From positions 186,001 through 250,000 of the forward strand of contig JAGRPP010000017.1 of assembly GCA_019449415.1 (NCBI GenBank): DNA of 64,000 bases, in the 5' to 3' direction. The notes under the pieces are model-generated. The model had not been told where the DNA came from and ran no database searches. It saw only the letters and a list, made by a program, of their open reading frames with translations. Each line of letters starts with the position of its first letter. Position 1 is the stretch's first letter. Source of the DNA: Geothrix sp. GTDB lineage: Bacteria; Acidobacteriota; Holophagae; Holophagales; Holophagaceae. The position numbers and the translations under genes are program-made. Positions 26,311 through 29,346 of this stretch are shown one piece after another.

Positions 26311-27087
26311 ATGGTCCTGACTCTCTTCGACAAGACCGGCGCCCGCGTGCTGGGGGCCCTTGAGACGACCGGGGACTTCGCCGTACTCGCAGGGCGGACC
26401 TTCGCCGCCATCTTCAAGCGTCCCTTCGACGGCAAGAGCCTGATGGGCCAACTCCATTCGCTGGGCGTGAACTCCATTCCCGTGGTGGTGCTCACGAGCA
26501 TCGCCGTGAGCATGGTGTTCGCCGTGCAGCTGGCCTTCGGCTTCCGTCAGTTCCAGGCGGAGGGCCTGGCCTCCCAGGTGGAGGGCTTGGCCATCGTCCG
26601 CGAGCTGGGGCCGGTGATCACGGGCCTGATGCTCTCCGGGCGCATCGGCTCGGCCATGGCCGCGGAATTGGGCACGATGCAGGTGACCGAACAGATCGAT
26701 GCGCTGGAGTGCCTGGCGACCGACCCCATCCACTACCTCTTCGTGCCGCGGTTCTTGGCCGCCGTCATCATGGTCCCCCTCCTCACGGTGGTCTCCATCT
26801 ATGTGAGCTTCTGGGGCGGCTACATGATCCTCGTCGGCGTGGAGGGCCAGAGCGCCTATGTCTACAGCAGCGAGTTCTACAAGTTGCTGGCCTTCCGCGA
26901 TCTCCGCATCGCCCTCATCAAGGCCCTGGTGTTCGGAATGATCATCGCCCTGGTGGGCTGCTGGAAGGGGTACCGCACCCACGGCGGCGCCGAAGGCGTG
27001 GGCAACGCCCCCACCAGCAGCGTGGTGACCAGCAGCCTCTGGATCCTCGTCTCCGACTTCTTCCTGACCAAGCTGTTGTTGGTGTGA
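26311..27087 (+). CDS. mlaE: Mla-type ABC transporter permease
   Basis: MlaE is the inner-membrane permease of the phospholipid transporter that maintains outer-membrane asymmetry. The 258-aa protein shows the family layout: amphipathic N-terminal segment, hydrophobic segments around 50-80, 145-170, 195-215 and 230-255, and the conserved ELGPVITGLMLSGRIGSAMAAELGTMQVTEQIDALE and FGMIIALVGCWKGY stretches. It is followed by mlaF after 4 bases. Confidence 0.95.
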   Translation: MVLTLFDKTGARVLGALETTGDFAVLAGRTFAAIFKRPFDGKSLMGQLHSLGVNSIPVVVLTSIAVSMVFAVQLAFGFRQFQAEGLASQVEGLAIVRELGPVITGLMLSGRIGSAMAAELGTMQVTEQIDALECLATDPIHYLFVPRFLAAVIMVPLLTVVSIYVSFWGGYMILVGVEGQSAYVYSSEFYKLLAFRDLRIALIKALVFGMIIALVGCWKGYRTHGGAEGVGNAPTSSVVTSSLWILVSDFFLTKLLLV

Positions 27088-27091
27088 CGGC

Positions 27092-27883
27092 ATGGCGCTG
27101 ATCGATGTCGTCAATCTCTCCAAGGCCTTCGGTCCGAAGGTGGTGCTGTCCAATGTGAACCTGCAGGTCCAGGAGGGCGAAAGCCTTGTCGTCCTGGGCG
27201 GATCCGGCACCGGCAAGACCGTGCTGCTCCGCAACATCATGGGCCTGCTGACCCCCGACTCGGGGCATGTGGCCATCGAGGGCAAGATCATCGCCCAGCT
27301 GGACCGGGAGGAACTGTTCCAGGTCCGCCAGAGCATCGGCATGTGCTTCCAGATGGCGGCCCTCTTCGATTCCATGACGGTGTTCGAGAATGTGGCCTTC
27401 GGCCTCCGGCGGCACCTCGAGATCACCGAGGCCGAAGTTCAGGCCCGGGTGGAGGAATGCCTTTCCATGGTGGGGATGAAGGGCACCGACAAGCTGAAGC
27501 CCGCGGAACTCTCCGGCGGCATGAAGCGCCGCGTGGGTTTCGCGCGCGCCATCGCCCTCAAGCCCAAGATCCTCCTCTTCGACGAGCCCACCACCGGGCT
27601 GGACCCGGTGATGACCGATGTCATCGGCCGCGTGATCCTGGACCTCAAGCACGAGCTGGGCGTCACCACCATCACCATCACCCACGACCTCAAGTCCGCC
27701 TTCGAGATCGCCGACCGCATCGCCCTGCTCTTCCGCGGCGAGTGCATTGCCTGCGAATCGCCGGCGGCCTTCAAGGTCAATCCCCATCCCGTCATTCAGC
27801 AGTTCCTGCGGGGGGATGCGGATGGCCCCTTCCTTCAGGACCCGCCCCCGCCCAAGCGCAAAACCCAGGAGGCCCACCCATGA
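27092..27883 (+). CDS. mlaF: Mla-type ABC transporter ATP-binding protein
   Basis: This 263-aa ATPase powers the MlaE permease. It has Walker A GGSGTGKTVLL (about 36-46), the Q-loop (FQMAALFDSMTV), signature LSGGMKRRVGFAR, Walker B ILLFDEPTTGLDP and the switch His in TITHDLKS. Its stop overlaps the mlaD start in an ATGA junction. No mlaB-like STAS gene is seen nearby. Confidence 0.95.
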   Translation: MALIDVVNLSKAFGPKVVLSNVNLQVQEGESLVVLGGSGTGKTVLLRNIMGLLTPDSGHVAIEGKIIAQLDREELFQVRQSIGMCFQMAALFDSMTVFENVAFGLRRHLEITEAEVQARVEECLSMVGMKGTDKLKPAELSGGMKRRVGFARAIALKPKILLFDEPTTGLDPVMTDVIGRVILDLKHELGVTTITITHDLKSAFEIADRIALLFRGECIACESPAAFKVNPHPVIQQFLRGDADGPFLQDPPPPKRKTQEAHP

Positions 27884-29346
27884 AGCTCGAAACCAAAGTC
27901 GGCCTCTTCTTCACGGGCGCCATCTTCCTCCTGGCCGTGCTCATTCTCCGGACCGAGAAGCTGGAGGTCGGCGGCAAGCGCAACCAATCCGAGCGGTTCA
28001 CCATCTTCGACTCCGTGGCCGGGCTGAGCCTCCAGAGCGCCGTGCGCATCGCCGGCGTGAAGGTGGGCGATGTCCGCACCATCGCCCTCGAGAACGGCAA
28101 GGCCCGCGTGGCCATTGGCCTGGGCAACGAAGTGCAGGTCTACCGCGATGCCAGCGTGTCCCTGGGCTCCATCGGCATCCTGGGCGAGAAGTTCATCGAC
28201 CTCGATCCCGGCCACAGCGCGATGGGCCCCTTCCCCGAAGGCATGCCCCTGCCCAGCAAGGCCGGCGTGAGCCTGGACAACCTCATGGAGACCCTCTCCG
28301 AGATCGGGAAGAATGTGAAGGGCGTCACCCAGTCCCTGAACGAATCCATCGGTGGCGAGCAGGGCCGGCAGAAACTCGACGAGATCGTGGACAACATCCG
28401 CGTGCTGACCGCCGAGTTCCGCTCCATGGCCCAGGAGAACCACGGGGCCATCAACAACACCATGGCCAATGTCGAGGCCATCAGCTCCGACCTGCGCGAC
28501 AAGCTGCCCAAGCTGGCCCAGCAGTTCGAGACCGTAGGCAAGAACCTCAACGCCATCCTGGAGGAGAATCGCCCCGAGCTGAAGGGCGTCATGAGCGATG
28601 TTCGCAAGCTGGCCCAGAGCTTCCAGGGGACCGCGGAGAACATGAAGGTGCTCACCGACCGGATCAACAAGGGCGAAGGCACCATCGGCAAACTGCTCAA
28701 CGACGAAACCACCATCAAAAAGATCAACGAGGCCGTGGACAATGTGAACGGCATGCTGGGCGGCTTCAACAAGATGGACTTCCGCCTCGACATGAACGCG
28801 GCGCAGTGGGACAAGCGCAAGGACAGCCGCGTGGGCCTGGGCCTGGAAATCGCGCCGCGGCCCGATTACTGGTATGCCCTGGGCTTCGCCTCCACGCCGG
28901 ATGGCAAGCTCAGCGAGAGCACCCGGACCGTCACCCAGATTGATCCCATCACGGGCCAATCCGTCAGCGTGCTCGAAAAGAACAAGTTCGTCACCACGGA
29001 CCAGAGCTTCACCGTATCGGCCCAGTTCGCCAAGCGCATCGGCGCCGCCATCTTCTCGGCGGGCATCGTCGAGGGCAAGGGCGGCGGCGGGCTGGAGTTC
29101 CGCACCTTGGATGATGACCGCCTGCGCTTCGGCATCCTGGCTTACGACTTCACCAAGCGGGACGACAAGCCGAATCCCCGCTACCGCTTCACCAGCAGCT
29201 ATCAGTTCTGGAAGGGCGCCTACATCCAGGCCGGCGTCCAGGACATCGGCAACAAGGACCTCCGCACCGTCTTCTTCGGTGGCGGCCTGCGCTGGAAGGA
29301 CGATGATTTGAAGAAGATCATCGGCTTGGCTGGAGCCTCCAAGTGA
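27880..29346 (+). CDS. mlaD: MlaD-type MCE protein with C-terminal beta-rich domain
   Basis: MlaD is the periplasmic substrate-binding MCE ring anchored to the inner membrane. The protein has an N-terminal helix (8-25), an MCE domain (about 38-118; SVAGLSLQSAVRIAGVKVGDV), a long helical region of heptad character (about 125-300) and a C-terminal domain (about 300-485) of alternating hydrophobic strands (for example RVGLGLEIAPRPDYWYALGF and RFTSSYQFWKGAYIQAGVQD) that looks like a small outer-membrane beta barrel. It is 488 aa, against about 180 for E. coli MlaD. A transenvelope MlaD of this architecture has been described in the diderm Firmicute Veillonella parvula. Start 27880 is tied to mlaF by ATGA. 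The barrel is predicted from strand pattern only. Confidence 0.85.
   Translation: MKLETKVGLFFTGAIFLLAVLILRTEKLEVGGKRNQSERFTIFDSVAGLSLQSAVRIAGVKVGDVRTIALENGKARVAIGLGNEVQVYRDASVSLGSIGILGEKFIDLDPGHSAMGPFPEGMPLPSKAGVSLDNLMETLSEIGKNVKGVTQSLNESIGGEQGRQKLDEIVDNIRVLTAEFRSMAQENHGAINNTMANVEAISSDLRDKLPKLAQQFETVGKNLNAILEENRPELKGVMSDVRKLAQSFQGTAENMKVLTDRINKGEGTIGKLLNDETTIKKINEAVDNVNGMLGGFNKMDFRLDMNAAQWDKRKDSRVGLGLEIAPRPDYWYALGFASTPDGKLSESTRTVTQIDPITGQSVSVLEKNKFVTTDQSFTVSAQFAKRIGAAIFSAGIVEGKGGGGLEFRTLDDDRLRFGILAYDFTKRDDKPNPRYRFTSSYQFWKGAYIQAGVQDIGNKDLRTVFFGGGLRWKDDDLKKIIGLAGASK
29311..29346 (+). repeat. Direct repeat, copy 1 (3' end of mlaD)
   Basis: The last 36 bases of mlaD recur at 29412-29447 with two mismatches, 101 bases further on. 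This copy encodes KKIIGLAGASK and the mlaD stop. Confidence 0.95.

Follow-up and report, generated by a model that had tools for sequence, protein, structure and literature searches.

The window analysed here, a stretch of 64,000 nucleotides from a Geothrix-like bacterium of the family Holophagaceae (Acidobacteriota), carries an mlaE-mlaF-mlaD operon whose third gene probably encodes the MlaD of a three-gene transenvelope MlaEFD system of the Veillonella parvula type, in which MlaD would form a tube across the periplasm and its barrels would provide the anchor in the outer membrane. The V. parvula MlaEFD with its elongated MlaD has been described as a transenvelope system (Grasekamp et al., 2023; PMC10665443), and the window protein, in its sequence and its predicted structure, fits this long MlaD by every feature open to computation. 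The type of system is known; the detail added here is its spread over three groups (Acidobacteriota, Nitrospirae, and Deltaproteobacteria), a signature in the terminal strand of the barrel, and a helix at the C-terminus. The operon is made up of the following genes.

26311..27087, + strand: mlaE, inner-membrane permease of a lipid ABC transporter, 258 aa (Pfam MlaE PF02405, E 2.7e-76; TIGR00056 above cut-off)
27092..27883, + strand: mlaF, ATPase, 263 aa (ABC_tran, E 2.8e-35)
27880..29346, + strand: long mlaD, MCE protein with a C-terminal barrel, 488 aa (Pfam MlaD, E 5.5e-14)

The ATG of mlaD lies at 27880, giving a 4-base overlap with the end of mlaF, and its stop codon ends at 29346. The top NCBIfam match of the mlaF product is MlaF (NF008809, E 2.2e-65), below the cut-off of that model. 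The operon is flanked by glmU upstream and a DUF116 gene downstream, and its gene content and a Pfam scan revealed no mlaA, mlaB, or mlaC within it, as the initial annotation had stated; the absence of mlaB is judged solely from this gene content. Among the loci examined, the glmU/DUF116 flank is confined to close relatives, mostly Holophagaceae, and at 101 of the 113 loci with room upstream the gene order is mlaE-mlaF-mlaD. Named Geothrix strains hold copies 84-89% identical to the window protein. The domains of the long MlaD, up to the end of the barrel, are as follows.

27886..27954, + strand: inner-membrane anchor helix, residues 3-25 (AF2 helix)
27985..28212, + strand: MCE domain, residues 36-111 (Pfam MlaD match at 43-111)
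28267..28755, + strand: long helical region, residues 130-292 (AF2 helices, low confidence)
28777..29298, + strand: 10-strand barrel domain, residues 300-473 (AF2, fold matches, alternation test)
28897..29004, + strand: long, hairpin-bearing loop joining strands 3 and 4, residues 340-375 (two extra short strands in AF2, lower pLDDT)

The AF2 model of the full-length protein (45 sequences) comprises a transmembrane helix, an MCE fold (residues 36-109), helices (132-292), and ten barrel strands. The MCE domain superimposes on E. coli MlaD (5uw8) with a VIA-align Z of 15.8 and 1.9 Å over 96 residues. The region that follows, about 163 residues in length, would extend to ~245 Å if it formed one continuous helix, which is sufficient to cross a periplasm. 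Its hydrophobic residues recur with a period of 3.5 residues per turn (142 sequences; none of 1000 shuffles was as strong), and homologues possess 150 to 221 residues in the span matching 112-293. By these analyses, two parts of the initial annotation were borne out, namely an inner-membrane-anchored MCE protein at residues 1-120 and a helical stretch at 125-300, the latter through its periodicity and through model helices reaching residue 292. Confidence in these helices is low, with pLDDT mostly <50 in the full-length model, so that the continuous tube is something that we infer.

Prediction of residues 290-488 alone, as the initial annotation had proposed (199 residues, 102 homologues), gave a closed barrel of ten long strands with a short hairpin between strands 3 and 4, at a pLDDT of 89.4 and a pTM of 0.77. 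The best aligned solved folds are two outer-membrane barrels of ten strands, OpcA (Z 16.2, 3.2 Å over 159 residues) and the designed TMB10_163 (Z 14.6, 2.5 Å over 133 residues); a third outer-membrane barrel, that of the OmpT-type protease Pla, follows at Z 13.4. By itself, Foldseek returned only weak matches (best E 1.2e-3), almost all of them to outer-membrane barrels. In Pfam, no family was found for the barrel domain of the window protein, while a scan of 102 barrel sequences yielded scattered weak matches (such as OMP_b-brl, BBP2_2, and DUF2490); a profile of the barrel sequences had no match among solved structures (best E 1). By prediction, the C-terminal domain is therefore supported as a closed 10-strand barrel of the outer-membrane type, the top fold matches being outer-membrane barrels and not the soluble fold that the initial annotation had named as contrary evidence.

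Soluble 10-strand barrels were also among the fold matches (nitrobindin 3wje and 2a13, Z 11.7-11.9; Rv0813, Z 10.8), as would be expected if the C-terminal domain were a soluble periplasmic barrel of the calycin/nitrobindin kind, lying outside the outer membrane and binding a lipid or hydrophobic ligand in its interior as a built-in MlaC-like shuttle. However, OpcA and TMB10_163 score higher, and the properties of the strands, loops, and terminus described below make this reading improbable. The alternation of residues expected of β-strands, claimed previously for residues 300-485, was confirmed over the 102 sequences: the mean face-to-face difference in hydrophobicity is 2.96, compared with 1.19 ± 0.27 after shuffling within strands, and none of 5000 shuffles reached the observed value. 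The hydrophobic face consists of 81% hydrophobic and 5% charged or amide residues; the polar face, with 42% charged or amide residues and 32% G/S/T/P, presumably lines the lumen of the barrel, and Gly, Arg, Glu, and Gln are conserved on it. The alternation test is silent on which face is outward, a point in favor of the soluble barrel. A test for stronger conservation of the polar than of the hydrophobic face was not significant (p 0.54), so that conservation by itself leaves the inward face undecided, but the polar face is about as conserved as the hydrophobic one, which would be unusual if it were exposed to solvent.

A barrel of ten strands would have its two ends on one side of the membrane, the periplasmic one. 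Counted from the AF2 models, the outward loops would then be ~4, 36, 2, 11, and 8 residues long, against ~4, 2, 5, and 2 for the periplasmic turns, and the loop at residues 340-375 would face the cell exterior. In these models, long and short loops by turns give the usual arrangement of outer-membrane barrels, which is a further argument against the soluble barrel. Two features mark the end of the protein.

29272..29295, + strand: terminal-strand signature GxxHyxHy, residues 465-472, FFGGGLRW (GxxHyxHy kept in 96 of 102 sequences)
29299..29337, + strand: conserved C-terminal helix with a W-x-D-x-D-L-K motif, residues 474-486 (AF2 helix)

In the last strand, G467 is present in all 102 sequences and position 472 is Trp or Phe in 90. 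Outer-membrane proteins usually end right after the last strand, and 21 of the 102 homologues terminate 0-2 residues past it. At the sequence level, the terminal-strand signature resembles the Bam-recognized signal of outer-membrane proteins; the many homologues whose chain ends at the GxxHyxHy strand itself are not what a soluble shuttle domain would suggest. Fractionation points the same way, the equivalent barrel construct of V. parvula having been found with the outer membrane (PMC10665443). In the other 81 sequences, the last strand is followed by a conserved extension of 14-22 residues, with the fuller motif W-x-D-x-D-[LI]-K-x-[LI]-[LI]-G, and Lys 478 is kept in 80 of the sequences reaching that position. 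A helical extension of some barrel sequences is noted by Grasekamp et al., with no role given in the main text (PMC10665443). The helix may serve as a plug, as an anchor, or as a change of the Bam signal. A more specific arrangement is conceivable, though we consider it unlikely: the long MlaD proteins of Acidobacteriota, Nitrospirae, and Deltaproteobacteria would form a homohexameric tube ending in a ring of six barrels in the outer membrane, and the D-x-D-L-K helix would plug or gate each barrel or dock it to the mouth of the tube.

In the preferred reading, the V. parvula-type transenvelope system, MlaE-MlaF would carry six copies of MlaD in the inner membrane, with a ring made of the MCE domains and a tube of helices crossing the periplasm. 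The Bam machinery would insert the barrels into the outer membrane, against which they would fix the tube; proteins of the Omp85 family were found in all 21 genomes of the genus. We propose that, because the barrels would hold the tube at the outer membrane, phospholipids, the likely cargo of this MlaEFD, could cross with neither MlaC as a soluble shuttle nor MlaA as a separate part, in the retrograde direction (outer to inner) if the default known from Mla applies. A barrel of ten strands is narrow, and its lumen here is presumably polar; its most likely role is therefore to anchor and position the tube, and an anchor is more plausible than a lipid pore.

The absence of MlaA and MlaC was assessed on near-complete relatives because the window genome is just 64% complete. 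A genome search for an mlaA-mlaC set, as suggested in the initial annotation, found none: MlaA was not detected in any of 247 Acidobacteriota genomes, among them one of the same species with a listed completeness of 100%, whereas the E. coli and Caulobacter controls were both positive, and MlaC was detected in 6 of the 247, none of them of the window genus. Five of these six genomes bear the barrel. The six matches were considered as a refutation of a shuttle-less system and rejected: at the four loci read (G001, G031, G090, and G099), the MlaC-family gene adjoins a TolC-like gene, an MMPL transporter with HpnN as its top named match, or both, a context arguing that these genes are not Mla shuttles. 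Two of the MlaC-family proteins were scanned and gave HpnM matches below the cut-off. MlaC-family proteins beside HpnN-like MMPL transporters, with or without a TolC-like gene, were seen at L185:4147-8787 and L189:1209-4287, and such clusters in some Acidobacteriota are possibly hopanoid or lipid export clusters.

The proposal of the initial annotation that the protein spans the envelope and replaces MlaC and MlaA stands only in part. The closed barrel is supported by prediction and no mlaA-mlaC set was found, but replacement is weakened. Acidobacteriota genomes without the barrel are also without MlaA, so that the absence of MlaA is not creditable to the barrel, and in other phyla MlaA occurs alongside the barrel in 8 of 30 genomes bearing it, so that the two can coexist; the loci with this co-occurrence (L190-L195) are mostly named Deltaproteobacteria or Nitrospirae. 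Such coexistence would also be expected if the protein were anchored in both membranes with its barrel acting as a mere tether, and the lipids were passed on by a further periplasmic or outer-membrane partner instead of by a one-protein bridge. The poorly predicted helical region of the window MlaD is compatible with this alternative, as are the remarks by Grasekamp et al. that phospholipids could not pass through a barrel as narrow as the one predicted and that the majority of long MlaD proteins have no barrel (PMC10665443). Against it, the Acidobacteriota searched have no MlaA and the genus no MlaC, and the downstream genes at 22 diverse loci resemble, by reading, unrelated housekeeping genes. 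A tether with a further partner therefore appears to have only a modest chance of being correct.

A second MCE match is present throughout the genus, with at least two in each of the 21 genomes. In the window's own genome, the second MCE operon (L180:3989-6401, contig C7) encodes MlaE, an ABC ATPase, and an MlaD that is short (321 aa) and has no barrel; the signature motif of this ATPase is apparently degenerate, with VSSAARKHANLARLL instead of LSGG. This second, barrel-less system could also carry lipid traffic. The classical LptD model PF04453 matched none of the 21 genomes and LptD_2 (PF19838) matched 16 of them, so that the LPS exporter of the genus may be of a divergent type.

Among known systems, the window and V. 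parvula share an mlaEFD operon without mlaA, mlaB, or mlaC, an N-terminal transmembrane helix with a single MCE domain, a helical region of ~150-180 residues, and a ten-strand C-terminal barrel, the barrels of both being likened by architecture. They differ in the length of MlaD (488 residues in the window, 419 in V. parvula), in the flanking genes (glmU and DUF116 as against tolC and tamB), and in the C-terminal helix beyond the barrel of the window protein. The E. coli system, MlaFEDB with MlaC and MlaA, has in common with the window the MCE domain, the MlaE permease, and the MlaF ATPase. In E. coli, however, a short MlaD (183 aa) cooperates with MlaB, MlaC, and MlaA; the operon and genome searches described above recovered none of these three. 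LetB and PqiB likewise span the periplasm as MCE proteins, but they do so with several stacked MCE domains and have no outer-membrane barrel, whereas the window protein combines a single MCE domain with helices and a barrel. The top Foldseek matches of the full-length model are to the mycobacterial Mce1 complex (8fed), in which MCE domains are also followed by long envelope-bridging helices. Mce1 is a heterohexamer that contributes one strand per chain to a small barrel (PMC10665443); in contrast, each chain of the window MlaD has its own 10-strand barrel.

These findings support the view that the shuttle-based Mla of E. coli is an exception and that a fixed bridge is perhaps used by many bacteria. 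They also supply cultured hosts outside the Firmicutes, the Geothrix strains, and some 100 diverse sequences of the barrel, in which a C-terminal helix is conserved, for testing the bridge model.

The barrel profile matched 74 of the 247 Acidobacteriota genomes, in 41 of 140 genera. A genome scan with the full-length alignment gave 80 loci, from records that bear the names Acidobacteria, Nitrospirae, Deltaproteobacteria, Desulfobacterales, and Pseudobdellovibrio; at 79 of these loci the match to the query extends into the barrel. As far as homology and prediction can tell, the transenvelope MlaD design is shown to be common to many Acidobacteriota, Nitrospirae, and Deltaproteobacteria. The expectation of the initial annotation that its presence in Acidobacteriota would widen the design carries little weight, since V. 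parvula-type transenvelope MlaEFD was already reported to be widespread, in a paper whose main text does not name Acidobacteria (PMC10665443). A text search of the literature for MlaD in Acidobacteria found nothing apart from an unrelated soil study. Two further copies come from records with other titles. The copy at L091, titled Bacillota, is 63% identical to the window protein, and the record looks like a mislabelled Holophagaceae bin; the copy at L110, titled Candidatus Bipolaricaulota, is 32% identical.
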